A program made the position numbers and the translations under genes. A stretch of 64,000 nt of DNA from Thermincola ferriacetica (lineage in GTDB: Bacteria; Bacillota; Thermincolia; Thermincolales; Thermincolaceae): the NCBI RefSeq assembly GCF_001263415.1, contig NZ_LGTE01000009.1, positions 36,472-100,471 on the forward strand. Reading direction: 5' to 3'. Shown piece after piece: positions 202 to 21,125 of this stretch. Below the pieces are notes generated by a model. That model was given only the letters and a program-made list of their open reading frames with translations. It had not been told where the DNA came from and did not search any database. Position 1 is the first letter of the stretch, and every line of letters starts with the position of its first letter.

Positions 202-867
202 ATGCCGACAAGAATGAAACTGACAAATGTTAATCTTTTGGAATCTCTTAATTCACCGGAATATGAGGAATTGAGAAAAGCGTTTTTGACGAAACAATTT
301 TCCAGGAAAGAAATTATTTCTTTTCCCAAAGAAGAACCAGACAAAGTGTACTTTATCAAGTCCGGGAGAGTCAGGGTTTACCTGGCTTATGAGGATAAAG
401 AATTTACCTTGTCTATTTTGGAATCCGGTGACATTTACAGTACACACACGAGGGCCTTTACCCAGGCTATGGAAGATACTACTTTATTCTTCGTAGATAC
501 CAGAGAGTTTGGAGAAATCGTTGCTAAATTTCCGGCTTTGGCTCTATCGATGGTTAAAGTGTTGGGAGACTTGCTGAAAAACGCCATTACGATAATAAAT
601 GGACTGGTTTTTAAGGACAGCCATGTCAGGTTGGCGGAATTCCTGGTACACGCAGCACAGGATAAGGGAGAACACGGTCCGGAGGGCATTGAGGTCAAGC
701 TTGGTTTGACTACTGAGGAAATTGCCATGGTTTTGGGCATTACCCGGCAAACAGTTTCGACCCTTTTTAATGATCTGATAAAGTCCGGAATAATTAAAAA
801 ACTGGATAGAAAGACTATTTTAATAAAGGACATCAGTTTTTTAAAAGAACTCTCAACTAAATCTTAA
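202..867 (+). CDS. cooA: CO-sensing transcriptional activator CooA (Crp/Fnr family)
   Basis: A 221-residue heme-dependent activator that turns on CO-oxidation genes when CO binds. It has an N-terminal cyclic-nucleotide-like beta-roll, a long dimerisation helix (about 107-135) and a C-terminal helix-turn-helix (about 170-195, TTEEIAMVLGITRQTVS). The features that separate CooA from other Crp/Fnr proteins are present: Pro2 straight after the start Met (the ligand displaced by CO in Rhodospirillum CooA), and His82 in the SGDIYSTHTR segment, aligning with heme ligand His77. The residue matching the redox-switch Cys75 is Ser80. Gly122 in VLGDLL matches the dimer-helix Gly117. Start: ATG behind GAGGGG. 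It lies just upstream of the coo operon, which carries a matching operator. Confidence 0.9.
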   Translation: MPTRMKLTNVNLLESLNSPEYEELRKAFLTKQFSRKEIISFPKEEPDKVYFIKSGRVRVYLAYEDKEFTLSILESGDIYSTHTRAFTQAMEDTTLFFVDTREFGEIVAKFPALALSMVKVLGDLLKNAITIINGLVFKDSHVRLAEFLVHAAQDKGEHGPEGIEVKLGLTTEEIAMVLGITRQTVSTLFNDLIKSGIIKKLDRKTILIKDISFLKELSTKS

Positions 868-899: not shown

Positions 900-927
900 G
901 AGCGACATAACGTGTCGCTCTTTTTTT
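900..927 (+). terminator. Rho-independent terminator of cooA
   Basis: A perfect 8-bp stem, GAGCGACA/TGTCGCTC, with a 5-nt loop is followed by seven T's. A near copy of the left arm (TCGAGCGGCATAACG) lies about 30 bp upstream, as if the terminator region had partly duplicated. Confidence 0.85.
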
Positions 928-934: not shown

Positions 935-950
935 TGTCAAATGCCCGACA
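935..950 (+). promoter_or_regulatory. CooA operator upstream of cooM
   Basis: TGTCA, six bases, CGACA: an exact match to the CooA site TGTCA-N6-CGACA known from Rhodospirillum rubrum. CooA sites there are centred near -43.5. That would put the start of transcription near 986 and the -10 region in TGATAGTTTTTA (969-980). It is the only such site I found in the window and it precedes the first coo structural gene. Confidence 0.8.
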
Positions 951-1023: not shown

Positions 1024-4000
1024 GTGGGCGTTGATCTGTTGAGTGGTTTTCACCCATGGATTGCCGCGTTGGGTGTACTTATTTTGTTGACAGGCGAAAT
1101 GTTGACACTCAAGTACATTAAAAACCTGTCAGCTATGCTTATCTTATCCACGGTTGCGGAAACAGGGTATGTGTTATTGGGATTTGGAACAGGTACTTAC
1201 ACTGGTATTACAGGGTCAATCCTTCACCTGGAATACCAGGCTGTAATGCGTGGGTTGGTTTTTGCAGCCGCAGCAGTATTAATAATGAAAAGGCGTTCCG
1301 GCAGCCTTGATCATCTAAGAGGAATTATCAAAAGCTATCCTCTTTGCACTGTACTTTTCAGTTTTGGGTTGTTTTCAGTTATCGGATTGTCTCCTTTTAA
1401 AGGCTCCATAAGCAAATTTTTAATAATTTATTCGGCAATTCAAAGCGGGCACCTGCTGCTTGCTGCTCTTGCAACCTTGGGCAGCATTATTGAAGCTTGG
1501 TATTGCCTGGTGGTGGTCCAAAAGCTGTGTTTTGAACAGCAAGATAGTTTGGCAGTTGTTGAAGAGCAAAATACTAAAGTTTCTCCCTTTGCCAACCTGT
1601 TAATGCTTATTTTAGCCGGAATGACCGTTGTTATGAGCCTTTTTCCGGAACCTTTCATCCATTTTGCCCAAAATACAGCCAGTCTGATAACGGCCAACAA
1701 CGGGGGCCAGCCAATGCCTGCTTTTGAGACACCTTGGCCGGTTTTAGTTTTATTACCCTATGCAGGCGGTTTTGCTGTTTATCTGATTGGTTTGATTTCA
1801 CACAGGCTGAGGAATCTCTCGGCTATTTTCATAACGGCTTTAACGGTATATTTTGTGTGGAATGATACCGGTTTGGACAGTTTATCAAGACTCTTTGCTT
1901 TTATTATGGCGGCAGTAATTTTTCTGGTAACCCTGTATTCGGTGGATTATTTAAAAGGCAAAGAGCATTCCAACCGCTACTTCTTTTTCCTGCTCATGAT
2001 GTTGGGCAGCCTCTTAGGGCTTTCGACAAGCAAGGAACTGGGAAACTTCTATACCTTCTGGGAGCTGATGACTTGGTCTTCGTACTTCCTGGTGGTTCAC
2101 GAGCAAACAGATAAGGCCCTAAAAGCCGGTTTCAAGTATTTCATGATGTGTACAGCCGGGGCATATATTATGCATTTTGGCATATTAACGCTTCATGTTA
2201 AGCTTGGTACCTTTGATATGTCTGCAATTTCCGCAAACCTGCATTTGTTATCCCCTGCTCTCTTAGTAACTATATTAATCCTGTTTATTACCGGGTTTGG
2301 GGTAAAAGCAGGTCTGTTTCCGTTTCATAGCTGGCTGCCTGATGCTCACCCGGTGGCTCCATCATCCATATCCGCCCCGATGTCCGGAATTTTGACAAAG
2401 GCGGGAGTTTACGGACTGATCAAAATATTATTTGTTGTTTTTGGCGCAGGGTTGCTGGCCCAACTGGGTACAACCGGGAAGGTACCGATGACAGGTTACG
2501 CCATTTCCGTCATGGGCGCCATCACAGTTTTGTATGGGGATATCATGGCTTTACGGCAGTCAGACCTGAAAAAATTATTGGCGTTTTCGACGTTGGCCCA
2601 GGTTGGCGAAATAGTGCTTACCCTGGGAACGGGCACTTACCTGGGGATGGTCGGTGGGTTGTATCACGTTCTGAACCATGCAATCATGAAGACTTTGCTG
2701 TTTCTTGCAGCAGGCGCTTTAATCTTCCGGCTGAAAAGCCAGGATGTGGATAAACTGAGAGGCATTGGCAGGGTGATGCCCTGGACTTCCTTGTGCTTTG
2801 CCGTGGGTATCCTGTCTATTATGGGCTTACCTCCCTTTAACGGATTTATCAGCAAATTTTTAATGGTTTACGCTCTGGTGGAAGCCGGCCGGATACCTTT
2901 TGCCGTGGTGCTGCTGGCGGGGGGCGTAATAGGGAGTTTTTATTACCTGAAATTGATAAGAATTATGTTTTATGAAAAATATGTGGGCCCCAAGATTTCC
3001 GAAGCGCCCTGGACCATGTCGGTACCTGTGACTGTTCTCGCATTGCTGGCTTTAGTTAACGGCCTCTATCCGCAAGGCGGACTGGCCCTTGTTAAAAAGG
3101 CCGCTGATTTGATTGCATTGCGGGGCGGTATGCCTCTGCAAATTATTCCCCAAATTAACCCGGTCTGGACATGGCCTGTGATAATCAGCATAATGGGAGC
3201 GTTTATGGCCTTTGCCCTGGGGAAAGTTTCAATCAAATTAGGCGGCTGGGGGGCGGCAACTGCGATGTTGGGGGCATTTGTTGCTGTCATTTACCTGAAC
3301 TCCCATTATGACATTCTTTCAACATCTTTCGCTTTATTGATCGCCTTCATGGGCATCTTAAATCTGGTCTATTCTGTAGGGTATATGGATCACAGCCATG
3401 CCCAAACCAGGTATTACCTGATGTTTTTACTGATGATAGGCGGTCTGCTTGGGGTGGCCCTGAGCAAAGATTTGTTTAGTTTCTTTGTATTTTGGGAAAT
3501 CATGAGCAGTTGGTCCCTGTATCTTGTCATCATTCATGAGGAAACTCAGGATGCCTTGCGCGAAGGTTTTAAGTACTTCTTTTTCAATTATACCGGCGCA
3601 ACCCTGGTATTACTGGGGCTGCTGCTCCTTACGGTGAATGCCGGAACTTTTCAGATGAGTGAACTGGCTGTCCGTTTGAATAGCTTAAGCTCCGGACAGG
3701 TAGCCGCCGGCATAATTTTGGTGTTAGCCGGTTTCGCCATGAAAGCAGCCATGTTACCCTTCAGGATAGATTACCAGATGCATCCCCCGGCGGCGCCTAC
3801 ACCTGTCAGCGGTTATATTTCTTCTGTGCTTCTGAAAAGTGCTCCTTTTGGCATGGTAAAGCTGTTCTATGTTTTTGGCGGGGTTACCCTTCTGAGTAAA
3901 TTTGGCCTGATTGGCGGTCAGCCGGTAATAATGTATGGTATGGCCTGGGTGGGAGGTATCACTCTTGTGATGGCTGCTTTCCTGGCTTTACTGCAAAGTG

Positions 4001-4872
4001 GACTGAAGCGTATACTCATCTATTCTACCGTGAGCCAGATCGGCTATATTGTTCTCGGGATAAGTCTGGGGTCATCGTTAGGAATGGCAGGGGGACTACT
4101 GCACCTGCTCAACCACATGCTGTTCAAAAATCTGCTGTTTCTGGCGGCAGGCGCCATAATGTTCAGAACAGGTATAGACAATCTTGATAAATTGGGTGGA
4201 ATCGGTAAAAAAATGCCGGTTACTTTAACGGCCTTCGCCATAGGGGCATTTTCCGTGGCCGGAATTCCTCCCTTTAACGGTTTCGTTTCCAAACTGGTTA
4301 TTTATCTGGCTGCCATAGAGAAAGGATACGCGGCGCTGACCTTGCTTTCTATGTTAGGCAGTGTACTGACCCTGGCCTACTTTATGAAGTTTTTACACTC
4401 GGCATTTTTCGGGCAATTACCTGAGCATTTGGAATCTGTAAAGGAAGCGCCCTGGACTATGCTGGTTCCAATGGTGATTCTGGCCATATTGTGCCTTGTC
4501 CTTGGGATAGTACCAGGACTCGCTTTAAATGTAATTACATCAATAATAACATGGTTAGGTCTGCCTTCTATTCCTGCCGGTCTCTTTGGAATTGAATCGG
4601 GTTTGGGTAATATGGGGATTTTAACTGTTCTGATAGTAACATCGCTGACTGTAGGACTGGCCGTTTATTTATTGGGGAACAGCAAAGTGAGGGTTACCGA
4701 AATTCATACCTGCGGTGTTGCCGATATACGGGGTGAGGAGATGCACGTAAATTCCCATAACCTGTATGCTGCCCCTAAGCAGTTAACTAATTGGTTAATG
4801 AGAGCAATAGTCAAGTGGCCGGTCATTCTCAGGGGGGTGAATCGTAATGAAAATTATCATGACTGCGCTTAA
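1024..4872 (+). CDS. cooM: CO-induced hydrogenase membrane subunit CooM (fused antiporter-like modules)
   Basis: A 1282-residue polytopic membrane protein, about the size of known CooM (near 1270). It belongs to the NuoL/NuoN/Mrp antiporter-like family and should form the ion-translocating arm of the CO-dependent [NiFe] hydrogenase. Three antiporter-type modules are visible in tandem, each ending in the same signature: GLSPFKGSISKF near residue 120, GLPPFNGFISKF near 605 and GIPPFNGFVSKL near 1085. The first module lacks its N-terminal half. The second and third keep the FWE(L/I)M segment and the Lys-containing helix before the signature. Start: GTG at 1024 behind AAAGGAGG; an out-of-frame ATG overlaps it. 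The 3' end overlaps cooK by 26 bp. Confidence 0.9.
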   Translation: MGVDLLSGFHPWIAALGVLILLTGEMLTLKYIKNLSAMLILSTVAETGYVLLGFGTGTYTGITGSILHLEYQAVMRGLVFAAAAVLIMKRRSGSLDHLRGIIKSYPLCTVLFSFGLFSVIGLSPFKGSISKFLIIYSAIQSGHLLLAALATLGSIIEAWYCLVVVQKLCFEQQDSLAVVEEQNTKVSPFANLLMLILAGMTVVMSLFPEPFIHFAQNTASLITANNGGQPMPAFETPWPVLVLLPYAGGFAVYLIGLISHRLRNLSAIFITALTVYFVWNDTGLDSLSRLFAFIMAAVIFLVTLYSVDYLKGKEHSNRYFFFLLMMLGSLLGLSTSKELGNFYTFWELMTWSSYFLVVHEQTDKALKAGFKYFMMCTAGAYIMHFGILTLHVKLGTFDMSAISANLHLLSPALLVTILILFITGFGVKAGLFPFHSWLPDAHPVAPSSISAPMSGILTKAGVYGLIKILFVVFGAGLLAQLGTTGKVPMTGYAISVMGAITVLYGDIMALRQSDLKKLLAFSTLAQVGEIVLTLGTGTYLGMVGGLYHVLNHAIMKTLLFLAAGALIFRLKSQDVDKLRGIGRVMPWTSLCFAVGILSIMGLPPFNGFISKFLMVYALVEAGRIPFAVVLLAGGVIGSFYYLKLIRIMFYEKYVGPKISEAPWTMSVPVTVLALLALVNGLYPQGGLALVKKAADLIALRGGMPLQIIPQINPVWTWPVIISIMGAFMAFALGKVSIKLGGWGAATAMLGAFVAVIYLNSHYDILSTSFALLIAFMGILNLVYSVGYMDHSHAQTRYYLMFLLMIGGLLGVALSKDLFSFFVFWEIMSSWSLYLVIIHEETQDALREGFKYFFFNYTGATLVLLGLLLLTVNAGTFQMSELAVRLNSLSSGQVAAGIILVLAGFAMKAAMLPFRIDYQMHPPAAPTPVSGYISSVLLKSAPFGMVKLFYVFGGVTLLSKFGLIGGQPVIMYGMAWVGGITLVMAAFLALLQSGLKRILIYSTVSQIGYIVLGISLGSSLGMAGGLLHLLNHMLFKNLLFLAAGAIMFRTGIDNLDKLGGIGKKMPVTLTAFAIGAFSVAGIPPFNGFVSKLVIYLAAIEKGYAALTLLSMLGSVLTLAYFMKFLHSAFFGQLPEHLESVKEAPWTMLVPMVILAILCLVLGIVPGLALNVITSIITWLGLPSIPAGLFGIESGLGNMGILTVLIVTSLTVGLAVYLLGNSKVRVTEIHTCGVADIRGEEMHVNSHNLYAAPKQLTNWLMRAIVKWPVILRGVNRNENYHDCA

Positions 4873-5809
4873 TCTGCTCATATTTCCCGGCTTCCTGTTT
4901 GCCCTGAGTTTTGGCCTGTTTCTGGCCGGAGTTGACCGCAAGTTGGCGGCCCGGATCCAGCGACGTGTGGGACCTCCCCTTTACCAGCCTTTTATAGACC
5001 TGGTGAAGTTAATGCGCAAGGAAACGGTTATACCCCGGGCTGCGCACCCGACAGCCTTTCAATACGCCCCTTTGTTAGGTGTTGCCGGGTTAGCGGCAGC
5101 CATTCCGTTAATGCCTCTCCCCGGCGTATACGCAGGGCTGCGGCAACCCGGAGACTTACTGATTATTTTATACCTGCTTACCCTACCTGCGGTGGCATTA
5201 ATGATCGGAGGATCCTCATCCGGTTCTCCTTTTGGCGCTCGAGGGTTTTCCAGGGAAATGTTGATGATGATGGCTTATGAAATTCCTTTGTTAATCGTTT
5301 TAGTTACAGTTGCCTTAAAAGTTGGCCTGGCTACCGGCGAAACAGCCACCTTTTCATTAAGTAAAATAGCGGAATATCAGCTTAATCATGGTCCGCTACT
5401 ATTTGATTACAGAATGTTACCGGCTGCCCTGGCCTTTCTGGCCTTTATCCCGGGCACTGTTGGTGTTGTCCCCTTTGATATACCGGAAGCCGAAACAGAA
5501 ATATTGGAAGGTCCGCTTCTGGAGTACTCAGGTCCGGGTCTTGCCCTGTATAAAATTGCTTACTCCCTGAAATTAGTCGTAGTTTTGACCCTGGCTGTTT
5601 TGCTCTTTTACCCTACTGTTTTGGGGGTTAGTCCCTTATTAAATTTGTTGTGGTTTATGGCCAAGTGCGTCGTGCTGGTGATATGCTCAATCACATTGGT
5701 AAGGACCACTACCGCCAGGCTGAGGATTGACCAGGCCTTTAAATTCTACCTGACTGTGCCGGCCGCTTTGGCTTTGGTAAGTCTGATTTTGATACTTTTT
5801 AAATGGTAA
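4847..5809 (+). CDS. cooK: CO-induced hydrogenase membrane subunit CooK (NuoH/HycD-like)
   Basis: A 320-residue multi-helix membrane protein of the NuoH/HyfC/EchB family. It anchors the hydrogenase module to the membrane and forms the quinone-site-like interface that couples electron flow to ion movement. Family marks are the N-terminal segment DRKLAARIQRRVGPPLYQP and the acidic loop VPFDIPEAETEILEGPLLEYSG (about residues 207-228). These acidic residues are conserved in NuoH, where they are thought to take part in proton coupling. It starts inside the end of cooM and is followed 16 bp later by cooL, so translation is probably coupled. Confidence 0.9.
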   Translation: MKIIMTALNLLIFPGFLFALSFGLFLAGVDRKLAARIQRRVGPPLYQPFIDLVKLMRKETVIPRAAHPTAFQYAPLLGVAGLAAAIPLMPLPGVYAGLRQPGDLLIILYLLTLPAVALMIGGSSSGSPFGARGFSREMLMMMAYEIPLLIVLVTVALKVGLATGETATFSLSKIAEYQLNHGPLLFDYRMLPAALAFLAFIPGTVGVVPFDIPEAETEILEGPLLEYSGPGLALYKIAYSLKLVVVLTLAVLLFYPTVLGVSPLLNLLWFMAKCVVLVICSITLVRTTTARLRIDQAFKFYLTVPAALALVSLILILFKW

Positions 5810-5825
5810 GGGGAGGTGCTGAAGA

Positions 5826-6257
5826 ATGAAAAGCCTGTTGCCCCAAATATCCACCAGGTCTCCCTGGTTATACCGTATTAATGCCGGTTCCTGCAACGGA
5901 TGTGATGTGGAGCTGGCTACTACGGCCCTGATTCCCAGATATGACGTGGAACGGCTGGGATGTAAATATTGTGGCAGTCCAAAGCATGCAGATATTGTTT
6001 TGGTTACGGGGCCTTTGACCGCCAAGGTGAAAGACAAGGTGCTGCGGGTTTATGATGAGATACCTGATCCCAAAGTAGTTGTGGCTGTCGGTATTTGCCC
6101 GGTCTCGGGAGGAGTGTTCAGAGACAGTTATGCAGTTCACGGCCCTGTTGATTCCTATATACCTGTTGATGTTAATGTTCCAGGATGTCCACCGCGGCCG
6201 CAGGCTATCATAGACGGCATAGTAGAGGCCATCAAAATATGGAAATCCAGGATGTAG
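5826..6257 (+). CDS. cooL: CO-induced [NiFe] hydrogenase small subunit CooL (NuoB-like)
   Basis: A 143-residue soluble subunit homologous to NuoB/HycG/EchC. It carries the single [4Fe-4S] cluster next to the active site. Ligands are visible as Cys23 and Cys26 (SCNGCDVE), then GICPVSGG and GCPPRP. The protein has none of the extra C-terminal clusters of uptake-hydrogenase small subunits and no Tat signal, as expected for a cytoplasm-facing group 4 enzyme. Start: ATG with GGGGAGG upstream. It lies between cooK and cooX in the canonical order. Confidence 0.92.
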   Translation: MKSLLPQISTRSPWLYRINAGSCNGCDVELATTALIPRYDVERLGCKYCGSPKHADIVLVTGPLTAKVKDKVLRVYDEIPDPKVVVAVGICPVSGGVFRDSYAVHGPVDSYIPVDVNVPGCPPRPQAIIDGIVEAIKIWKSRM

Positions 6258-6269
6258 GGGTGGATAAAC

Positions 6270-6794
6270 ATGTTTTCATTTATAAAAATTGTGCTCCGGA
6301 ATTTGATCCGGGGACCGAGTACAGAACCATATCCCTTTGGCAAGGCTTCTGCTCCCAAAGGACTGCGGGGTAAAGTGAAATTTGACGCCCACAATTGTGT
6401 TGCCTGCAGAATGTGCGAACATGTTTGCGCCGGAGGAGCAATTCAGTTCAGTGAAGTTCCTGATAAAAGAGGGCTTAAATTCACTTTATGGCATAATACC
6501 TGTGCCTTTTGCGGGCTTTGTGAATATTACTGTCCGACCAAGGCTATTCACCTGACCGGGGATTATCATACTGCACATTTACAGAAAGACAAATACGGTT
6601 ACGTGGAAACCGGATTAGTAAAATATCAACCGTGTGCAAACTGCGGGACACCCATGGTCCCCGTAAGTCCCCGCCTTCTTTCTCTGGCTTACGGGCAGGT
6701 CAACGGCGATATAGCCAGGCTGACTCATTTGTGTTCCGAGTGCCGCCGGCAGATTTGTGATCCGGTAAGTAGTAACCGTTCAGAGGTGAAATAA
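6270..6794 (+). CDS. cooX: CO-induced hydrogenase ferredoxin-like subunit CooX (NuoI-like)
   Basis: A 174-residue polyferredoxin subunit homologous to NuoI/HycF. Two CxxCxxCxxxC(P) motifs (CVACRMCEHVC and CAFCGLCEYYC) bind two [4Fe-4S] clusters that relay electrons from CooF to CooL. The C-terminal 60 residues add CANC and CSECRRQIC, a further four or five cysteines that look like a zinc ribbon or an extra cluster site and are not part of minimal NuoI. Start: ATG behind GTAGGGG. One base separates its stop from the cooU start. Confidence 0.88.
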   Translation: MFSFIKIVLRNLIRGPSTEPYPFGKASAPKGLRGKVKFDAHNCVACRMCEHVCAGGAIQFSEVPDKRGLKFTLWHNTCAFCGLCEYYCPTKAIHLTGDYHTAHLQKDKYGYVETGLVKYQPCANCGTPMVPVSPRLLSLAYGQVNGDIARLTHLCSECRRQICDPVSSNRSEVK

Positions 6795-6795
6795 A

Positions 6796-7332
6796 GTGGC
6801 ATCAGTACAAGAAATTTTTTCAGAAAAACTCCGCTCATTTTTTGGCGATGCGATAAGTTTGCAATGGAACACAGATAATAAGGGCGCTGTTTGGGGGTGG
6901 TGCAGGCTGGCTGACCACCACAAAATAGACCAGGTAGCGTTGATTGTTGCCGGTCTAAGGGGACGGGTAATTACTATTACGGCCTACTGGACAAAAAAAG
7001 ACACTGCAACTGACGTGCTGGAAATTGCTTACCATTTCGATCTTGATGGCTGTACTTGCACTGTAACAGTATCACTGCCTGCTGATGACCGGAGTATTAA
7101 ATCGATTACGCCCATTTTGAAGAGCGCCGACTGGCATGAAAGAGAAATGCAGGAGTTATACCCTGTAAAAGTGTTGGGACACCCCAACCCCCAACCCCTG
7201 TTCCTGGCCGAGGGAACCGATATTGGAGAAACAGGGATGGTTCCTTTGTCTGAGGCTATGCAGGGAGCCACAACCAGGACATTATGGGAAAAGGTCAACC
7301 TGGCTAATGCAGAAAGGAGGGATAAAAATTGA
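6796..7332 (+). CDS. cooU: CO-induced hydrogenase subunit CooU (NuoC-like)
   Basis: A 178-residue protein resembling NuoC/30-kDa subunits, a structural partner of CooH with no metal ligands. The family's C-terminal hallmark appears as DWHEREMQELYPVKVLGHPN, followed by a short tail. Start: GTG at 6796 behind AGAGGTG, one base after the cooX stop. Its TGA overlaps the TTG start of cooH (TTGA), which argues for translational coupling and equal amounts of both subunits. Confidence 0.88.
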   Translation: MASVQEIFSEKLRSFFGDAISLQWNTDNKGAVWGWCRLADHHKIDQVALIVAGLRGRVITITAYWTKKDTATDVLEIAYHFDLDGCTCTVTVSLPADDRSIKSITPILKSADWHEREMQELYPVKVLGHPNPQPLFLAEGTDIGETGMVPLSEAMQGATTRTLWEKVNLANAERRDKN

Positions 7333-8411
7333 GCACCTATACAATCCCTGTGGGTCCCCTCCATGTTGCCTTAGAGGAACCAATGTATTTCAAAATACAT
7401 GCCGAAGGAGAAACAGTAACGGATATCGATATAACTGCCGGTCATGTGCACAGGGGAATGGAGTATCTGGCTCTGAAACGCAATATTTATCAGAACATCA
7501 CCCTCACAGAACGGGTATGTTCACTCTGTTCCAACAATCACCCCTTCACCTACTGCATGGCTTTAGAAAGACTGGCGGGCATTGAGGTTCCGGAACGGGC
7601 CGAATATCTCCGGGTGATCGCTGATGAGATCAAACGCATCGCCTCACATTTGTTTAATACAGGAATGTTAGCCCATATTATCGGTTTCGATTCATTGTTC
7701 ATGCACGTAATGGAGTTAAGAGAAATAGTCCAGGATACAAAAGAAACAATTTATGGAAATCGGATGGACCTGGCGGCCAACAGTATTGGCGGGGTAAGGT
7801 ACAACCTTACTGAAGAAAAAGGGAAATACCTCCTGAAAAATTTAGAGCAGCTCAAAAAACCGCTGCAGGAGATTTGCAAAATTTACAGTACCAATCCCCT
7901 GGTCAGACTCAGAACAGAAGGGGTAGGCATATTACCCAAAGAAAAAGCCGTCGAGTATGGAGTAGTCGGGCCTGTCGCCAGGGGTTCCGGAATCAATTAT
8001 GATGTACGGGTGAAAAACCCTTACGCAGCATATAACCGGTTGAAGTTTACTGTTCCTGTGGAAACCGCCGGGGATGTCAGGGCAAGGGCTATTGTAAGGT
8101 TAAGAGAAATTGCGGAGTCAATAAGCATCATTGAACAGTGTGTCCGTGATATGCCCGAGGGACCAACCTGCCTGGATTATTTGCCTGATATTCCCGCTGG
8201 GGAGGCAGTTGCCAAGTCGGAGGCGCCGCGGGGGGAACTGCTGTATTATGTGCGTACGGCCAACAGTGATCTGCCTGAACGCATCAAATGGCGCGTACCA
8301 ACTTATATGAACTGGGAAGCTTTGAAAATCATGATTCCAGGGAACAAACTGGCCGATGTTCCGGTTATTATCGGCAGCATTGACCCTTGTATTTCCTGCA
8401 CCGAGAGATAG
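7329..8411 (+). CDS. cooH: CO-induced [NiFe] hydrogenase large subunit CooH (NuoD-like)
   Basis: A 360-residue catalytic subunit that reduces protons to H2. The four NiFe-binding cysteines are Cys64 and Cys67 (ERVCSLCSNNH) and Cys354 and Cys357 (DPCISCTER). The protein ends three residues after the last cysteine, so it lacks the C-terminal extension that an endopeptidase removes in most hydrogenases. To my knowledge the same is reported for CooH of R. rubrum. Start: TTG at 7329, chosen because AGGAGGG precedes it and it overlaps the cooU stop. Upstream subunits and the downstream hypA support the call. Confidence 0.93.
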   Translation: MSTYTIPVGPLHVALEEPMYFKIHAEGETVTDIDITAGHVHRGMEYLALKRNIYQNITLTERVCSLCSNNHPFTYCMALERLAGIEVPERAEYLRVIADEIKRIASHLFNTGMLAHIIGFDSLFMHVMELREIVQDTKETIYGNRMDLAANSIGGVRYNLTEEKGKYLLKNLEQLKKPLQEICKIYSTNPLVRLRTEGVGILPKEKAVEYGVVGPVARGSGINYDVRVKNPYAAYNRLKFTVPVETAGDVRARAIVRLREIAESISIIEQCVRDMPEGPTCLDYLPDIPAGEAVAKSEAPRGELLYYVRTANSDLPERIKWRVPTYMNWEALKIMIPGNKLADVPVIIGSIDPCISCTER

Positions 8412-8467
8412 CCAACCTTAATGCATTAGCTCCGAAGGTTTTCACTATACGGGAGGAAGGGATGCCC

Positions 8468-8845
8468 ATGCATGAGGCGGCAATAGTAGAGAGTATTTTC
8501 AATGTGCTCAATGCCCAAATAAAGGAGCACCGGATAAAAAAAGTATTGAAAGTAAAACTCAGGGTTGGGGAAATGACTGCCATAGAGAATACCACTTTGA
8601 TAGCCTGTTTCGAAGTTTATGCTGAAAATACCGCGGTCCAGGGAGCAGACCTGGTCATCGAGCGGGTTCCGCTCAAGGCAAGGTGTCAGGAGTGCAAGGA
8701 GGAGTTTCCTGTGCTCAATTATAGTTTTCGCTGTTCCCGCTGCGGGGGCATAAATGTACAGGTTATTTCAGGCAGGGAACTGTACATTGAAAGCATTGAA
8801 GCAGAAAAGTTTGAAGAGGAGGTGAATCCCAGTGGCCAAAATTAA
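8468..8845 (+). CDS. hypA: Hydrogenase nickel incorporation protein HypA
   Basis: A 125-residue nickel chaperone. The start is set at the ATG giving MHE, because His2 is the conserved nickel ligand; an ATG six bases earlier would add Met-Pro. The zinc site is Cys73, Cys76, Cys89 and Cys92 (CQEC, CSRC). It may serve CooH and, given its place just before cooFS, perhaps also the nickel enzyme CooS. No hypB, hypE or hypF is in the window. It overlaps cooF by 14 bp. Confidence 0.93.
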   Translation: MHEAAIVESIFNVLNAQIKEHRIKKVLKVKLRVGEMTAIENTTLIACFEVYAENTAVQGADLVIERVPLKARCQECKEEFPVLNYSFRCSRCGGINVQVISGRELYIESIEAEKFEEEVNPSGQN

Positions 8846-9404
8846 GGAGAACTCGTTTATTTATGCAGACCCGCAGAAATGCCTGGGCTGCAAAAATTGT
8901 GGACTGGCCTGTGCGCTGGCTCACGCGGGTTGTGACCTGCAAACGGCTGTAGCGGGAAAACGGCAGTTACAGCCGCGCAACTCAGTGGTCAAGGCAGGCG
9001 ACATGTTTATGCCGATTCAGTGCCGGCAGTGTGAAGACGCGCCATGCGCCCAGGCCTGTCCAACGGGAGCTATCAGGCAGGAGGATGGATTAGTCAAAAT
9101 CAACGAACAAAACTGTGTTGGTTGCAAAGTGTGCTCTATGGTTTGCCCTTTTGGAGCCATTGTTGTGACTCCGGTTCCTAATGCTGAACCAAACCGGAAG
9201 ACTAAAAGGGGCAAGGCCTTAAAATGTGACCTATGCTTCAGCAGCGTCCGGAAAGATGGCCAACTAACCTGCGCCTGTGTGGAAGCCTGTCCCACGCAGG
9301 CTGTAATGCTGGTTGATCCTGAGGGTTACCGGACAAAGATTCTTGAAGCCAGGGCCAAAGAATTGGCCAAGGCTCATTCAGTAGCTAAGCAGAAGCGGGC
9401 ATAA
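8832..9404 (+). CDS. cooF: CODH electron-transfer iron-sulfur protein CooF
   Basis: A 190-residue ferredoxin-like protein of the DmsB/HycB type. It has four cysteine clusters for up to four [4Fe-4S] centres: CLGCKNCGLAC, CRQCEDAPCAQAC, CVGCKVCSMVC, and CDLC with a later CACVEAC. It carries electrons from CooS to the hydrogenase. Start: GTG at 8832 behind GAGGAGG within the end of hypA. Gene order hypA-cooF-cooS is the one known in hydrogenogenic carboxydotrophs. Confidence 0.92.
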   Translation: MAKIKENSFIYADPQKCLGCKNCGLACALAHAGCDLQTAVAGKRQLQPRNSVVKAGDMFMPIQCRQCEDAPCAQACPTGAIRQEDGLVKINEQNCVGCKVCSMVCPFGAIVVTPVPNAEPNRKTKRGKALKCDLCFSSVRKDGQLTCACVEACPTQAVMLVDPEGYRTKILEARAKELAKAHSVAKQKRA

Positions 9405-9420
9405 AATTGGGGGGAGAAGC

Positions 9421-11331
9421 GTGAATAAGGATTATAAATTTGTTGACCAGGCAATTGAAGAGCTGCTGCCGAAAGTCAAGGAGGCAGGATTGGACACGGT
9501 TTGGGACAGGTTCAAAAGCATGCAGCCACAGTGCGGATTTGGTGAGCTGGGAATTTGCTGCCGTATCTGTTGGAAAGGGCCGTGCCGTATTGACCCCTTT
9601 GGTAACGGGTCTCAGCGCGGCATTTGCGGGGCAGATGCTCACACCATTGTGGCGAGAAATCTGATCAGGGGCATCGCGGCAGGAGCGGCCGCTCATTCCG
9701 ACCATGGACGGCATATTGCTCTTACTTTGTTAGAAGTAGCTGAGGGCCATGCCCCGGCGTACTGCATAAAAGATGAAAAAAAATTAATGAGCGTCGCCGC
9801 CAGGCTGGGCCTGTCCACTGAAGGCAAAAATGTCAGGCAGGTGGCCAAAGAGGTAGCCCTGGCTACGCTGGAGGATTTTTCCCGGCAGAATTCCAGTATT
9901 CCTTGCAGTTGGGCCAGGCAAACCATGACCGCTGAGCGTGCTGAAAAACTGACTGCCCTTGGCGTCATGCCGCATAATATTGATGCTGTTGTAGCAGGCA
10001 TTATGAATCGCACTCACGTAGGATGTGATGCTGATCCGGTTAACCTGTTGCTTGGCGGTTTGAAAGGGGCGCTGGCCGACTATACCGGAATGTATTTGTC
10101 TACCGAATTATCTGACGTTATTTTCGGTACTCCTGAACCGGTCATAACCACGGCTAATCTCGGTGTTCTGAAAGAAGATGCGGTGAACATTGCCGTGCAT
10201 GGGCATAACCCGTTATTGAGCGAAATTATTTGTGATGTGGCCGGGTCAATGGATGAAGAGGCAAGGCAGGCCGGCGCAAAGGAAGGGATTAACATTGTCG
10301 GCGTCTGTTGTACGGGCAACGAGGTAATGGCCAGGCGCGGCATCCCGCTGGCCACAAATTACCTTTCCCAGGAAATGGCTGTCCTCACCGGGGCAGTAGA
10401 TGCCATGGTTGTTGACGTTCAGTGTATCATGCCGTCATTAGGCGTTTTGCAGGAGTGCTACCATACCCAGTTGATAACTACTATGGCCACCAATAAGATA
10501 CCGGGGGCAGTTCATGTGGAGTTTACAGAAAAAACTGCGCTGGAAGATGCCCGGCGGGTTGTTGAACTGGCTATAGAGGCTTATAAAAGAAGAGATAAAA
10601 ATAAAATTAATATTCCCCAGTACAAAGAAACAGCAATTGTAGGTTTCAGCGCTGAGGCAGTTTTTGCTGCATTGAGCAAGCTAAATAAGGAAGACCCGTT
10701 AAAACCTTTGTTAGATAATATTGTCAACGGCAATATTCAAGGGGTGGCATTATTTGCCGGCTGCAGCACCACCAGAGTTGCCCAGGATCATAACTTTGTT
10801 ACTATTGCCAGAGAACTGGCCAGGCATAACGTGTTATTGTTAGCTACCGGGTGTGGAGCCGGCGCCTTTGCAAAACTTGGGCTCATGACTCAGGAAGCCA
10901 CTGAGGCTTACGCCGGGGATTCCCTTAAGGCGGTCCTTACCGCTGTCGGGGAGGCCGCCGGGTTAAATGGCCCCCTGCCATTGGTTCTGCATATGGGCTC
11001 ATGTGTTGATAATACCAGGGCTGTTACCGTAGCTACAGCTCTGGCCAATAAGTTAGGAGTCGATTTAGACAAGCTACCTGTGGTGGCGTCCGCACCGGAG
11101 GCTATGTCCGAAAAGGCCGTTGCTATAGGTACCTGGGCGGTGACTTTGGGTATACCGACTCATCTGGGGATAATACCTCAGGTTACCGGGTCTTCTTTGG
11201 TGACTGAGGTGTTAACTGATAAGTTGAAAGACCTGGTAGGTGGCTACTTTATAGTCGAGACTGACCCTCTCCGGGCAGCAGGCAAGCTTTACGAAGTAAT
11301 TCGGGAAAGGCGCAAGGCTTTGGGGATATAA
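9421..11331 (+). CDS. cooS: Anaerobic carbon monoxide dehydrogenase catalytic subunit CooS
   Basis: A 636-residue Ni-Fe enzyme converting CO and water to CO2, two protons and two electrons. All expected ligands are visible: Cys38 and Cys46 for the shared D cluster; Cys47, Cys50, Cys55 and Cys69 for the B cluster; and His260, Cys297, Cys335, Cys448, Cys478 and Cys528 for the Ni-Fe C cluster (segments AVHGHNP, VCCTGNE, VQCIMPS, AGCSTTR, TGCGAG, GSCVDN). Length matches the monofunctional CODH-I/II type, not the CODH of the acetyl-CoA synthase complex. Start: GTG at 9421 behind GGGGGGAGAAG. Confidence 0.96.
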   Translation: MNKDYKFVDQAIEELLPKVKEAGLDTVWDRFKSMQPQCGFGELGICCRICWKGPCRIDPFGNGSQRGICGADAHTIVARNLIRGIAAGAAAHSDHGRHIALTLLEVAEGHAPAYCIKDEKKLMSVAARLGLSTEGKNVRQVAKEVALATLEDFSRQNSSIPCSWARQTMTAERAEKLTALGVMPHNIDAVVAGIMNRTHVGCDADPVNLLLGGLKGALADYTGMYLSTELSDVIFGTPEPVITTANLGVLKEDAVNIAVHGHNPLLSEIICDVAGSMDEEARQAGAKEGINIVGVCCTGNEVMARRGIPLATNYLSQEMAVLTGAVDAMVVDVQCIMPSLGVLQECYHTQLITTMATNKIPGAVHVEFTEKTALEDARRVVELAIEAYKRRDKNKINIPQYKETAIVGFSAEAVFAALSKLNKEDPLKPLLDNIVNGNIQGVALFAGCSTTRVAQDHNFVTIARELARHNVLLLATGCGAGAFAKLGLMTQEATEAYAGDSLKAVLTAVGEAAGLNGPLPLVLHMGSCVDNTRAVTVATALANKLGVDLDKLPVVASAPEAMSEKAVAIGTWAVTLGIPTHLGIIPQVTGSSLVTEVLTDKLKDLVGGYFIVETDPLRAAGKLYEVIRERRKALGI

Positions 11332-11363
11332 TCTTTGATTATGTTTGAAAATATATCTTAAAA

Positions 11364-11395
11364 AGAGATTAGGGCTGGTTTCAGCCCTAATCTCT
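11364..11395 (+). promoter_or_regulatory. Perfect 14-bp hairpin between cooS and cooC
   Basis: AGAGATTAGGGCTG and its exact complement enclose a 4-nt loop, 33 bp after the cooS stop. No T tract follows; the next bases are CAATGCAAACC. It therefore looks less like a terminator and more like an mRNA 3'-end stabiliser or a partial attenuator. Such an element could make CooS far more abundant than its accessory protein CooC. Confidence 0.6.
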
Positions 11396-11424
11396 CAATG
11401 CAAACCCCAAAAGGAGCTGAAATT

Positions 11425-12213
11425 ATGAAAATTGCAGTTACAGGTAAGGGTGGAGTTGGGAAAACAACGGTTTCCGGCACTCTGGCCAGGATTTTTGCTG
11501 CCGATGGATACCGGGTACTGGCTATTGATTGTGATCCTGACGCTAACCTGGCTTCTGCTATTGGGATACCGGAAGAACAATACCGGTCTGTTATCCCTTT
11601 TTCCAAAATGAAAAAGCTGGCCGAAGAACGTACAGGGGCCAGTGGTGGATATGGCACATTTTTTATTTTAAACCCCAAGGTAGATGATTTGCCTGAAAAA
11701 TACTGTATCAACTATAAAGGGGTCAAACTGTTGGTGATGGGCACCGTAGATCAGGGGGGCAGTGGCTGCGTATGCCCGGAACATACCCTTATTAAGCGCT
11801 TGATGCACCACCTTCTTGTTCAAAAAGACGAAGTAGTAATTATGGATATGGAAGCAGGTATTGAACATTTAGGCCGTGGCACTGCCGATGCTGTTGATGC
11901 CATGATTGTGGTGGTAGAACCCGGACAACGGAGCATCCAGACCGCCAGGCAAATTTGCGCCCTGGCAAAAGATTTGGGGGTTAAAAATCTTTATGTAGTC
12001 GGCAGTAAAGTACGCAGTGAAAGTGATATGCACTTTATTAAGGACAGCCTGCCGGGACTTCCCATATTAGGCAAGGTTTCATTAAATGAGCAGATAATTA
12101 AAGCAGATATGCAGGGGATAGCTCCCTACGACCTGGGTGGGCAGGTTGTACAGGAAATCAGGGCCATAAAAGACAGGTTAGTGAATTTGCTTAACAAACC
12201 TGTTCACTTATAG
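11425..12213 (+). CDS. cooC: CODH nickel-insertion ATPase CooC
   Basis: A 262-residue MinD/NifH-type P-loop ATPase that matures the nickel site of CooS. The Walker A is GKGGVGKTT (7-15). The metal-binding Cys-X-Cys of the dimer interface is Cys115 and Cys117 in SGCVCPEH. The ATG at 11425 is preferred over the in-frame ATG at 11398, because AAAGGAGC sits at the right distance and MKIAVTGKGG is the usual N-terminus. It follows cooS and the intercistronic hairpin. Confidence 0.92.
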   Translation: MKIAVTGKGGVGKTTVSGTLARIFAADGYRVLAIDCDPDANLASAIGIPEEQYRSVIPFSKMKKLAEERTGASGGYGTFFILNPKVDDLPEKYCINYKGVKLLVMGTVDQGGSGCVCPEHTLIKRLMHHLLVQKDEVVIMDMEAGIEHLGRGTADAVDAMIVVVEPGQRSIQTARQICALAKDLGVKNLYVVGSKVRSESDMHFIKDSLPGLPILGKVSLNEQIIKADMQGIAPYDLGGQVVQEIRAIKDRLVNLLNKPVHL

Positions 12214-12255
12214 ATACCGGTTTCACATCATTTCAGCCAGGAAGAAGGTGTAATT

Positions 12256-13512
12256 ATGTGTGTTGCAACTGTGGGAAAAGTTGTAGAGATCCGGGGGAAA
12301 AGGGCAGTTTGCAGTTTCAGAGGAGTGCTCAGGGAAGTTTCGATTTCACTGGTTCCGCGAGTTAAATTGGGAGATTCTGTCGTAGTTCACGCGGGCTTTG
12401 TGTCTGAAATTATTAAGGATACAAATAATTATTATCATGATTTGGTTGCCACAGATGCTTTGGCCGGGCAAATCCTAGACGCTATTAAACGGGAAAACAC
12501 AAAAATGCACCATCGTCATGTGAGGCTGATGAACTTTTGCGGTTCCCATGAGAGTACTGTAATCAGATATGGGCTACGGCAACTGCTGCCGGAAAATATT
12601 GAGCTGGTATCGGGACCGGGGTGTCCCGTATGTGTTGTTCCCAATGAAGAAATAGAGATGGGCATAAAACTGGCAAAATCAGATAATATTATTTTAACTG
12701 TTCACGGTGACATGATGAGGGTGCCAACCGGCCTCGGTTCCCTCGAAGAAATCAGGGCCGCGGGAGCTGACGTCCGCATAGTTTATGATATAAACGAAGC
12801 CATACAAATCGCGCGGGAGTGTTCCAGGGAGGTAGTTCATTTTGCCGTGGGTTTTGAAACTACGGCCCCGGCAACAGCGGCGGCAATTCTGGAAGCTGGC
12901 GGGATTTCTAACTTTTCAATAATTTCGTCCCACAGGATGACGAGCCCCATAATTCAGTGCGTTCTGCAAAATTGCGAGGTGGATGGCGTTATTGCCCCAG
13001 GCCACGTGGCCATGATTACGGGACTCAAGCCTTTTGCAGAGCTTAACAAACAATTTAAAATTCCCTTTGCAATCAGTGGTTTTCAACCTATAGATATTCT
13101 GCATTCTGTATTAAATATTTTAATCCGGATAAATGAAGAAAAGCCGGAAGTATTTAATCAATATACACGGGTGGTAAACTCTGGGGGCAACCTGGAAGCC
13201 CAGAAAAAAATTGAACAGGTATTTACTGTGCAGGACGATTATTTGCGCGGTTTTCCCAAGTTGGCGAAGTCACGGTTGGTCCTGAACAGGCGGTGGAGTA
13301 AATTTGACGCTGAAAAGAAATTTAACCTCCGGCTTAATGAAAAGAAAAGGGGCCAACCGGACGACAGTTTTTGTGGCGCTGTTTTGCAAGGTGCTATGCC
13401 TCATCAGTGCCCGCATTTCGGAACTGTTTGTACACCGGTTAATCCTTTAGGCCCCTGTATGGTCTCACAGGAGGGACCTTGTTACGCCAGTTACCATAAT
13501 GGAACAGAATGA
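12256..13512 (+). CDS. HypC-HypD fusion protein, [NiFe] hydrogenase maturation
   Basis: A 418-residue single frame with two maturation factors in series. Residues 1-55 are a HypC domain: it begins MCVATVGKVVEI with the essential Cys2 and ends near VHAGFVSEII, without the usual C-terminal helix. From about residue 58 it is HypD, with Cys95 in NFCGSHE, GPGCPVC (120-126), GFETTAP, APGHV, and a C-terminal Fe-S segment containing CPHFGTVC and GPCMVSQEGPC. HypC and HypD normally form a separate-chain complex that assembles the Fe(CN)2CO group. The HypD motif usually written GFEPLDIL reads GFQPIDIL here. Start: ATG behind GAAGAAGG, 42 bp after cooC, so probably the last gene of the coo operon. Confidence 0.9.
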   Translation: MCVATVGKVVEIRGKRAVCSFRGVLREVSISLVPRVKLGDSVVVHAGFVSEIIKDTNNYYHDLVATDALAGQILDAIKRENTKMHHRHVRLMNFCGSHESTVIRYGLRQLLPENIELVSGPGCPVCVVPNEEIEMGIKLAKSDNIILTVHGDMMRVPTGLGSLEEIRAAGADVRIVYDINEAIQIARECSREVVHFAVGFETTAPATAAAILEAGGISNFSIISSHRMTSPIIQCVLQNCEVDGVIAPGHVAMITGLKPFAELNKQFKIPFAISGFQPIDILHSVLNILIRINEEKPEVFNQYTRVVNSGGNLEAQKKIEQVFTVQDDYLRGFPKLAKSRLVLNRRWSKFDAEKKFNLRLNEKKRGQPDDSFCGAVLQGAMPHQCPHFGTVCTPVNPLGPCMVSQEGPCYASYHNGTE

Positions 13513-13534
13513 GATGATTTGTATATAAAAACTG

Positions 13535-13563
13535 TTGACATAAACCATATCTTATAGTAATAT
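13535..13563 (+). promoter_or_regulatory. Putative sigma-A promoter for the tRNA-Lys/tRNA-Glu pair
   Basis: TTGACA (13535-13540), a 17-bp spacer and TAATAT (13558-13563) lie 23 bp before tRNA-Lys. Confidence 0.7.
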
Positions 13564-13586
13564 ATAAACCTGTGAGACGCTTTTTT

Positions 13587-13662
13587 GAGCCATTAGCTCA
13601 GTTGGTAGAGCACCTGACTTTTAATCAGGGTGTCGCTGGTTCGAGTCCAGCATGGCTCACCA
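13587..13662 (+). tRNA. tRNA-Lys (anticodon TTT)
   Basis: A 76-nt cloverleaf. The acceptor GAGCCAT pairs with ATGGCTC; the anticodon stem CCTGA/TCAGG encloses CTTTTAA; the T arm is GCTGG-TTCGAGT-CCAGC. The CCA end is encoded. Confidence 0.97.
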
Positions 13663-13670
13663 TTTTATGC

Positions 13671-13746
13671 GGCCCCTTGGTCAAGTGGTCTAAGACACCG
13701 CCCTTTCACGGCGGTAACACGGGTTCGAATCCCGTAGGGGTCACCA
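13671..13746 (+). tRNA. tRNA-Glu (anticodon TTC)
   Basis: A 76-nt cloverleaf with encoded CCA. The acceptor GGCCCCT pairs with AGGGGTC (one G-T pair). The anticodon loop CTTTCAC lies in the stem CCGCC/GGCGG and the T loop is TTCGAAT. It lies 8 bp after tRNA-Lys, so the two are probably co-transcribed. Confidence 0.97.
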
Positions 13747-14643: not shown

Positions 14644-16029
14644 GTGATACATAAATTTAAATTTGATGATAAAAAAATAGTTTTGGATGTAAACAGCGGA
14701 GCGGTCCATGTTGTGGACGACGTTACCTGGGACGTTTTGGATTATTACGAAAAATATGCTGAAAAAGACAGAGAGACAGTCCGGGACCTTGTTTTAAGGA
14801 ACCTGAGCCGGCATTACAAAAATGAAGAACTGCTGGAAGTTATTAACGAGATAGAAGATTTAATTGAGCAGGGGCTTTTGTTCTCAGCGGACAGTATTCC
14901 CCGGGAATACAGTCTGCCGGAAAACCCGGTGGTTAAATCCCTGTGCTTACATGTTGCCCATGATTGCAACCTCAGGTGTAAATATTGTTTTGCCGGAACG
15001 GGCCATTTCGGTGGGGAAAAAGGTCTTATGCCCTTTGAGGTGGGCAAAGCGGCTATAGATTTTCTGGTGCAAAGCAGCCAGCGCCGGAAGCATTGTGAAA
15101 TCGACTTTTTTGGCGGCGAACCATTGCTGAATATGGATGTAGTAAAGCAGATTGTCCATTATGGACGGGAACAGGGAGCAAAACACGACAAGGAATTTAA
15201 ATTTACTTTAACAACCAATGCCGTCCGCCTGGATGCAGAAATAATCAATTACCTGAATGATAATGACATAGCTGTGGTATTAAGCCTGGACGGCAGACCG
15301 GAAGTAAACGACCGCATGCGCTTGACTCCCGCCGGTAAGGGCAGCTACCATACCATCACGCATAAAATAAAAGAAATGGTGCAGTCCCGCCATAATGAAA
15401 ATTATTATGTACGGGGCACATTTACCAGGTTTAACTTGGACTTTGCTGCTGATGTACTGCACCTGGTAGATGATCTGGGTTTTAAACATGTGTCTGTTGA
15501 ACCGGTTGTGGCAGGGGCTGAGAACGATTATGCTTTCCGCGAAGAAGACCTACCTGTATTGTTTGCGGAATACGAAAAGCTGACCAGAAGCTATCTGGAG
15601 CATTATAGTAATAGGAATGAATTCAACTTTTTCCATTTCAACCTGGAATTAGAGCATGGTCCCTGCCTGCCCAAGAGATTATCAGGCTGTGGCGCCGGCC
15701 ACGAATATTTGGCTGTTACGCCTGAAGGCGACCTTTATCCGTGCCATCAATTTGTCGGCAGACGGGAATACAGGTTAGGTACTGTCTTCGACGGCATCTT
15801 TGAGGACAGAAGGCACATCATGAAACAATTTCAGCAGGCCCATATTTATAACAAGCAAAAGTGCCGGGAATGCTGGGCTAAGTTTTTCTGTTCCGGTGGC
15901 TGCCACGCTAATGCCCATGCTTTTAACGGGACCCTGCTTGAACCTTATGATATAGGGTGCCAACTGGAGAAAAAGCGTGTTGAGTGTGCTATATATATTC
16001 AGGTGAAAAAGATGAAAGGCGAAATTTAG
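14644..16029 (+). CDS. scfB: SCIFF maturase, radical SAM/SPASM protein
   Basis: A 461-residue enzyme that installs thioether cross-links in the SCIFF peptide. An N-terminal peptide-binding (RRE/PqqD-like) region of about 85 residues is followed by the radical SAM triad Cys108, Cys112 and Cys115 (CNLRCKYC) and GGEPLLN. The C-terminal SPASM domain has cysteines in CGAGHEYLA, LYPCHQF, CRECWAKFFCSGGC and IGCQLEK, enough for two auxiliary [4Fe-4S] clusters. Start: GTG at 14644 behind AGGGGAGA. Immediate linkage to the six-cysteine peptide fixes the identity. Confidence 0.93.
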   Translation: MIHKFKFDDKKIVLDVNSGAVHVVDDVTWDVLDYYEKYAEKDRETVRDLVLRNLSRHYKNEELLEVINEIEDLIEQGLLFSADSIPREYSLPENPVVKSLCLHVAHDCNLRCKYCFAGTGHFGGEKGLMPFEVGKAAIDFLVQSSQRRKHCEIDFFGGEPLLNMDVVKQIVHYGREQGAKHDKEFKFTLTTNAVRLDAEIINYLNDNDIAVVLSLDGRPEVNDRMRLTPAGKGSYHTITHKIKEMVQSRHNENYYVRGTFTRFNLDFAADVLHLVDDLGFKHVSVEPVVAGAENDYAFREEDLPVLFAEYEKLTRSYLEHYSNRNEFNFFHFNLELEHGPCLPKRLSGCGAGHEYLAVTPEGDLYPCHQFVGRREYRLGTVFDGIFEDRRHIMKQFQQAHIYNKQKCRECWAKFFCSGGCHANAHAFNGTLLEPYDIGCQLEKKRVECAIYIQVKKMKGEI

Positions 16030-16977: not shown

Positions 16978-17028
16978 ATGTACACTGGTCTTAAGGATGG
17001 AAAGGCGGTGGCGAGATGGCTCAATTGA
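16978..17028 (+). CDS. Possible 16-residue leader peptide overlapping the regulator start
   Basis: ATG at 16978 behind ATAAGGAGATT opens a 16-codon frame (MYTGLKDGKAVARWLN) whose TGA lies 10 bp inside the following regulator gene, in another frame. The good ribosome site suggests translation and possible coupling. Without comparison to relatives it remains a candidate. Confidence 0.3.
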   Translation: MYTGLKDGKAVARWLN

Positions 17029-18350: not shown

Positions 18351-18373
18351 CAGGCTGAAGGAAGGTAGACAAT

Positions 18374-19036
18374 ATGGAACAGATCATCAAACAAATACAG
18401 GAAGGTCTGCTGGAAGGCGATGCCCAGGTTGTTAAAAATTTAACGGAAAAGGCACTGGCCGTGGGTATCAATGCCAAAATAATAATTAAAGAAGGGTTAA
18501 TGCCGGGTATGAAAATTGTCGGGCAAAAATTTCGTGATAACGAAATTTTTATTCCCGATGTGTTGATGTCCTCCAGGGCTATGCATGCCAGTCTTTATGT
18601 TTTGCGACCGCTTCTCACATCTTGCAGGCTTGCATTTAAAGGAAGCGTAGTTGTGGGAACCGTTGCCGGTGACCTGCATGATATCGGCAAGAACATGGTG
18701 GCCATGATGTTGGAAGGAGCGGGATATTCGGTTATTGATGCCGGTATTGATGTGCCGGCCGGCGATTTTGTGAAGGCTGTGAAAAAATACAAGCCGGACA
18801 TTTTGGCCATGTCAGCCCTGTTAACAACTACTATGGGCGAACTGGGTGATGTCATTGCCCGGTTGAAAGAAGAAGGTTTACGGCATCATACCAAAGTCCT
18901 GGTAGGCGGCGGACCTGTAACGCCGGAATTTGCCCTAGCGATAGAAGCCGATGCTTATGCGGCAGATTCATATCATGCCATTGAGGCGGCTAACCGCCTG
19001 ATAACGGGTGAAGTAGGTTTTATTTCGGTTTCTTAA
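18374..19036 (+). CDS. Corrinoid protein (MtbC/MttC-like methyl carrier)
   Basis: A 220-residue cobalamin carrier. The N-terminal B12-binding-2 cap domain (about 1-88) is followed by a Rossmann-like B12 domain with the signature DLHDIGKN (100-107), where His102 is the lower cobalt ligand. Later segments are SALLTTTM and VGGGPV. It accepts methyl groups from a substrate methyltransferase. A second carrier of the same family lies at 26819. This copy lies next to the activator and regulator, not the MttB-like gene, so the two carriers may serve different methyltransferases. It follows the regulator by 23 bp. Confidence 0.9.
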   Translation: MEQIIKQIQEGLLEGDAQVVKNLTEKALAVGINAKIIIKEGLMPGMKIVGQKFRDNEIFIPDVLMSSRAMHASLYVLRPLLTSCRLAFKGSVVVGTVAGDLHDIGKNMVAMMLEGAGYSVIDAGIDVPAGDFVKAVKKYKPDILAMSALLTTTMGELGDVIARLKEEGLRHHTKVLVGGGPVTPEFALAIEADAYAADSYHAIEAANRLITGEVGFISVS

Positions 19037-19107
19037 ATAACGTGTCAAACCAGACCTTATATTAAAATTACAGCCCCGCCAGGGGCTTGATTCACTTGGA
19101 GGGAATT

Positions 19108-20889: not shown

Positions 20890-20967
20890 CAACACAAGAA
20901 TCCGCCAATCGAAGAGCTACCCCCCTAAAGAGAGTTTCAGATTGAAGAAAAAGTTTCAAGTTGGCAC

Positions 20968-21027
20968 GATAAGGGGAGCTTAAATGATTCATCCGCTCCG
21001 GATAACATTTAAGCTCCCCCATTTATC
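20968..21027. repeat. Large inverted repeat in a 420-bp intergenic region
   Basis: GGGGAGCTTAAATG (20973-20986) and its exact complement (21006-21019) bracket an inner 5-bp hairpin (ATCCG/CGGAT). GATAA and TTATC extend the base. There is no T tract directly after. It may be a terminator variant or a regulatory cruciform. Confidence 0.7.
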
Positions 21028-21054
21028 TAGGAGACCTTTGTCCATAACCTGCAT

Positions 21055-21071: not shown

Positions 21072-21125
21072 ATCTTTAATTGGGGCATTCTAATAAAAAT
21101 AGAGCTAAGTCGGTGAAAAGGCAAG

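Follow-up and report, generated by a model that had tools for sequence, protein, structure and literature searches.

It is still an open question in the field how the hydrogenase receives the Fe(CN)2CO group from the HypC–HypD complex (HypCD). In a model published in 2024, the iron group is held between Cys2 of HypC and Cys41 of HypD, with the C-terminal part of HypC closing over the group and ATP opening that part (PMC11565642). The authors propose that HypC separates from HypD and docks on the hydrogenase large subunit; their models showed no significant contact between the whole HypCD and that subunit, and they describe the origin of the CO ligand under anoxic conditions as elusive (PMC11565642). 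The solved HypCD structures of Thermococcus kodakarensis (3vyr, 3vys, 3vyu) contain two chains, in which HypC has 75 residues and a tail of 27 residues after its HTGF motif. In contrast, both partners form one chain, with a shortened HypC tail, in the gene described here from a 64,000-nucleotide stretch of Thermincola ferriacetica DNA (the window).

A HypC–HypD fusion gene at the end of a coo cluster

The gene is one uninterrupted ATG-started frame of 418 amino acids with no internal stop, preceded by a purine-rich sequence resembling a ribosome site (ggaagaagg, from 12240; Table 1). It encodes a natural HypC–HypD fusion, as proposed in an earlier note made from the sequence. Residues 1–55 match Pfam HupF_HypC (PF01455) with 63.5 bits against a cut-off of 28.5, covering profile positions 1–55 of 65; the note's caveat that these residues might not score as HypC thus does not apply. 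Residues 70–414 match Pfam HypD (PF01924) with 426.9 bits against a cut-off of 25 (profile positions 3–349 of 351), and NCBIfam HypD (TIGR00075) scores 411.4 bits against 192.8 (profile positions 18–366 of 372). The NCBIfam HypC profile (TIGR00074) gives 47.4 bits, 0.6 bit below its cut-off of 48, as expected for a HypC that lacks its tail, so that HypC membership is supported by Pfam and narrowly missed by NCBIfam. Solved relatives are T. kodakarensis HypD (283 bits, query 72–416) and HypC (42 bits, query 1–54).

The note's further statement that the HypC C-terminal helix is missing holds in part. The tail is cut back to about 13 residues and lacks the full helical extent of HypC, but the AlphaFold2 model of the fusion places a 10-residue helix at residues 56–65, ahead of the first HypD helix (68–83), and the helix is therefore predicted to be shortened, not wholly absent. 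The structural comparison that the note had recommended matched this model to the HypD chain of solved HypCD (3vyr_B) with a TM score of 0.88 by target and to the HypC chain (3vyr_A) with 0.60, model confidence being modest in the HypC domain (block means 58–87; residues 1–3 below 50).

Table 1. Features of the coo cluster and of the fusion gene, in window coordinates.
Feature	Position	Strand	Basis or remark
cooA, CO-sensing regulator	202..867	+	top solved-structure match 2fmy (CooA-1), 278 bits
terminator-like hairpin after cooA	900..920	+	hairpin scan
CooA-site-like TGTCAAATGCCCGACA, between cooA and cooM, upstream of cooM	935..950	+	fits TGTCRNNNNNNYGACR
cooM (presumed name)	1024..4872	+	matched in 6/6 other clusters read, 63.7–64.9% identity
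cooK (NuoH-like)	4847..5809	+	PF00146
cooL (small subunit)	5826..6257	+	PF01058
cooX (ferredoxin-like)	6270..6794	+	4Fe-4S dicluster domain
cooU (NuoC-like)	6796..7332	+	PF00329
cooH, [NiFe] large subunit	7329..8411	+	PF00346 and PF00374; ends DPCISCTER, without C-terminal extension
hypA (nickel chaperone)	8462..8845	+	PF01155, TIGR00100
cooF (presumed name)	8832..9404	+	4Fe-4S domains
cooS, Ni-CO dehydrogenase	9421..11331	+	TIGR01702; 1jqk 892 bits
cooC (presumed name; P-loop accessory protein)	11398..12213	+	PF01656; matched in 5/6 other clusters read
hypCD, HypC–HypD fusion gene	12256..13512	+	frame; Pfam and NCBIfam profiles; 80 full-length fusions including the window protein
HypC domain, residues 1–55, beta-barrel	12256..12420	+	PF01455; model strands within 3–53
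Cys2 codon of the fusion, HypC domain	12259-12261	+	
junction, residues 56–67; predicted short helix 56–65 replacing the HypC C-terminal helix	12421..12456	+	model; 46-residue spacing in 80/80
HypD domain, residues 70–414	12463..13497	+	PF01924; TIGR00075 above cut-off
Cys95 codon, equivalent to E. coli HypD Cys41 (iron ligand)	12538..12540	+	alignment; role from PMC11565642
promoter-like site downstream of the fusion	13535-13563		

The fusion gene begins 42 bases past cooC as the 3'-most gene of the coo cluster, in agreement with the note. The cluster has the order cooA / cooMKLXUH-hypA-cooFSC, all on the forward strand, and its members, including the CooA-like site, follow in the sequence listed in Table 1; the names of cooM, cooF and cooC are presumed. 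CooC is 71–72% identical to its counterparts in three other clusters (L136, L138, L140) and 51–53% identical to those in L137, L139 and a second copy in L140. A scan for terminator-like sites gave 18 in positions 850–13700 against 15.4 expected, and the short intergenic gaps that separate the genes from cooM through hypCD contain none on the forward strand. The spacing suggests that the fusion gene shares one operon with the coo genes. Induction by CO is suggested, as the cluster opens with cooA followed by a CooA-like site, which fits the consensus TGTCRNNNNNNYGACR quoted in PMC6085454. The pattern TGTYRN6YRACA has two matches in the window against 0.83 expected, and at least two occurred in 16 of 100 shuffles.

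A single fusion family with a distinct HypD subtype

The fusion is rare in the genomes sampled (1 of 61 relatives and 1 of 398 in the phylum) and recurs across sequence databases. Among proteins of a length that fits the fusion, residues 1–95 of the window protein found two matches at E ≤0.001, and P0003 as query found 80 at E ≤10, all with both Pfam domains precomputed and one of them a 245-residue fragment. The known full-length fusions number 80, the window protein included. One of these, P0002, is 99% identical to the window protein (five member sequences, three contigs); besides it, 79 further proteins contain both domains, and identity of the fusions to the window protein is otherwise 49–56%. 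Where a host is given, it is Neobacillus sp. LXY-4, Bacillus tuaregi, an Oscillospiraceae or one of two Clostridia bacteria, none of which is known to carry coo genes, and this weighs against a general tie of the family to CooH. The family occurs in none of the 391 genomes sampled in the class of G398, where open frames of 449–458 amino acids at three places are misleading, with in-frame stops separating hypC and hypD. The two domains are individually known and such fusions already stand in databases, two under a joint HypC/HypD name given by JGI; no publication describing the HypC–HypD fusions was found in the literature searched.

Spacing is uniform across the family. From the HxGF motif of HypC to the iron-ligand Cys of HypD there are exactly 46 residues in all 80 full-length fusions, whereas in separate proteins the HypC tail has a median of 27 residues (range 22–36; 55 pairs), to which HypD adds about 33 (in 49 of these pairs); about half of the HypC tail has thus been lost.

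The note had also advised looking for N-terminal PF01455 domains on HypD proteins and mapping the fusions on a tree. The resulting HypD tree contained 33 of the 80 fusions, 57 rows of separate HypD (53 different), one Thermococcus (Tk) HypD and one other fusion. All 33 fusions fall in one clade (99/98), with which Tk HypD groups on a long branch (99/99); the window pair is placed, with weak support (82/25) and on a long branch (0.74), as sister to the remaining fusions. Substitutions common to all 33 fusions include Glu for Thr45 in the iron-ligand motif (Thr in 57/57 separate rows), Thr for Gly104 (Gly in 56/57), His for Phe142 (Phe in 56/57) and Arg at position 176 (Lys in 49/57). As these four also occur in Tk HypD, a second HypD subtype is the likely background in which the fusion originated; the window's genome encodes one HypD of each subtype. 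Beyond the claims of the earlier note, alignment and tree thus place the fusion in a single family, spread over several bacterial groups, whose HypD is of a distinct subtype.

Residues tied to carriage of the Fe(CN)2CO group and the [4Fe-4S] cluster, and to interaction with HypE, are kept. Cys41, CPVC, GFETT, Asp98 and Glu357 of E. coli HypD align with Cys95, Cys123/Cys126, GFETT 199–203, Asp152 and Glu406 of the window protein, and fusions and separate HypDs agree at all of these as well as at the C-terminal cysteines. In the window protein, the latter (Cys373, 385, 392 and 409) align with E. coli Cys323, 336, 343 and 360, and we take them to be the [4Fe-4S] cluster ligands. Asp152 corresponds to E. 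coli D98, which according to the literature is required for HypE contact. The N-terminal Met-Cys, with Cys2 as putative iron ligand, is present in the window protein, as the note had stated; among the 54 of the 80 fusions that were aligned, Cys2, His45, Cys95, Cys123, Cys126, Asp152 and GFETT are invariant. The window protein has Leu330 where a Trp is near-universal (57/57 separate HypD rows, 53 of them different, and 31/33 fusions), and some loss of function is therefore possible.

Other joined genes were recovered with a canonical HypC as query (E ≤10), which found eight further fusions (P0082–P0089), each with one member sequence, in which the partner of HypC is HypD (four), parts of HypF (three) or a PF02492 domain (one). 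P0085 (428 amino acids), known from one sequence on a contig of 2.5 kb, resembles the window fusion in joining HypC and HypD in one chain, but its HypD is of the common subtype and 53 rather than 46 residues separate the two motifs; it lies outside the fusion clade, so that it represents an independent event or an artefact. In four genomes of one genus (G092, G364, G126 and G231; loci L034, L035, L036 and L038), hypC and hypD are in the same frame and split by a single TAA, which leaves a fusion one stop codon away; their HypDs fall outside the fusion clade.

Hydrogenases and maturation genes of the host genome

The fusion is a second, coo-linked scaffold in its genome (G000; 3.18 Mb, 78 contigs), as separate hyp genes and other hydrogenases are present alongside it. 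The note's recommended search for the former located adjacent hypF, hypC, hypD and hypE on contig C1, all above NCBIfam cut-offs, and searches for HypC and for HypD hit two places each, the C1 set and the fusion. Although the C1 proteins belong to the same families, hypC and hypD are adjacent genes there, with a 14-base overlap, and C1 HypC (L001) has a full-length tail of 26 residues after HAGF. C1 HypD is 41% identical to that of the fusion, with CGTHT in place of CGSHE. HypB exceeds its cut-off once, on contig C9, beside a second hypA.

Large subunits encoded on C30, C18 and C12 have both cysteine pairs, and their DPCxxC motif is followed by 16–18 residues (13–15 past the His); CooH ends three residues beyond the motif. 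We take CooH to be a group 4c hydrogenase. Groups 4c and 4e are described as having no cleaved C-terminal peptide in a review (PMC12134894). On C9 (L079:3424–4788), the gene for an uptake-type large subunit has a TAA before the C-terminal DPCxxC metal-ligand motif, and its product would thus hold no standard NiFe site; hypA and hypB follow this gene at a distance of 2 to 3 kb.

The earlier note had suggested that the fusion is a maturation factor dedicated to CooH. Its place in the coo cluster and the separate hypFCDE set, which would leave the fusion free for one client, are in keeping with this, but comparison across genomes is not. A close CooH (at least 77% identity) occurs in 9 of the 398 phylum genomes, and the fusion family is absent from eight of these nine, its one occurrence in the phylum sample being the window's own genome; CooH in general therefore does not need the fusion. 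Of the other eight close-CooH clusters, six were read. That of G046 (L138) has the same order as the window, cooMKLXUH-hypA-cooFSC followed by maturation genes, but separate hypB, hypF, hypC, hypD and hypE directly follow cooC where the window has the fused pair alone. G127 has hypE and hypD upstream of cooA, and neither hypC nor hypD was found in the stretch read of the other four. The link between fusion and CooH is one of gene position only.

Proposed assembly and delivery of the iron group

The note's question of how an iron group could leave a tethered HypC is well founded, as the 2024 model includes both a mobile HypC C-terminal part and departure of HypC from HypD (PMC11565642). Our preferred reading, to which we give somewhat better than even credence, is that the fusion serves as a single-chain scaffold for Fe(CN)2CO whose tethered HypC would make the delivery, CooH being the likely recipient. 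The fusion gene would be induced together with CooH by CO and CooA, and the Fe(CN)2CO group would be assembled between Cys2 and Cys95, with cyanide supplied by the single HypF/HypE pair encoded on C1. Docking or swinging of the tethered HypC would hand the group to apo-CooH without release of free HypC, after which HypA from the coo cluster and HypB from C9 would add nickel. With only a remnant of the tail that shields the iron site in the E. coli HypCD model, the fusion would depend on rapid transfer. The covalent link would preclude HypC release unless the chain is cleaved, so that transfer would occur with HypD still present; the lack of significant contact between HypCD and the large subunit in the published models argues against delivery by such an undissociated complex (PMC11565642).

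A broader proposition, which we advance tentatively and consider doubtful as it stands, is that fused, short-tailed HypCD constitutes a separate assembly route for the [NiFe] site, in which one undissociated chain both builds and delivers the iron group. The HypC lid and release steps would then not be universal, and the route would be matched to hydrogenases such as CooH that have no C-terminal peptide to await.

Alternatively, the fusion may act as a general-purpose or backup scaffold for the maturation of any hydrogenase of the cell, its place after cooC reflecting the convenience of CO induction rather than dedication to CooH. In favour of this, the genome encodes large subunits besides CooH, three with both cysteine pairs and one truncated, and eight of the nine close-CooH genomes lack the fusion family. 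However, a complete separate hypFCDE set is already present, and the fusion's HypD differs in subtype from the genome's own, suggesting a distinct client or mode; we consider this account unlikely. It is less probable still that the fusion only builds the iron group, which the separate HypC of C1 would collect from the fused HypD and take to CooH. A separate HypC is indeed encoded in the genome, and the published model proposes that HypC is released once loaded (PMC11565642), but the fused HypC keeps Cys2 in 54/54 aligned fusions, and a second HypC would presumably have to displace the tethered one from the HypC place. Tuning of the fusion to free CO as ligand source, made when CO is abundant, would accord with the CO induction suggested by CooA and its site and with the elusive anoxic source of this ligand (PMC11565642); it is very improbable, as no sequence feature pointing to CO binding was seen and the family is absent from eight of nine close-CooH genomes. 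The chance of a sequencing or assembly artefact joining two genes, a risk raised in the note and for which only the oddity itself speaks, is negligible, being ruled out by P0002, the single spacing of the 80 full-length fusions and their single clade.

Under the preferred reading of a one-chain scaffold serving CooH, the iron group of CooH would be built without the free HypC release proposed by the current model. With its tail cut back and HypC tied to HypD, the family offers a ready-made natural test of the lid and release steps of the 2024 model. One-chain expression at a fixed 1:1 ratio could also help to produce [NiFe]-hydrogenases in other hosts.

Downstream of the fusion lie genes for tRNA-Lys, tRNA-Glu and tRNA-Gly, adjoined by a gene for a radical SAM protein with a SPASM domain (14644–16029). 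Positions 17016–25256 encode a PocR/AraC regulator, a corrinoid protein, a RACo-type activator, two BCCT transporters and an MtrH-family methyltransferase, an assemblage that looks like a betaine demethylation cluster.
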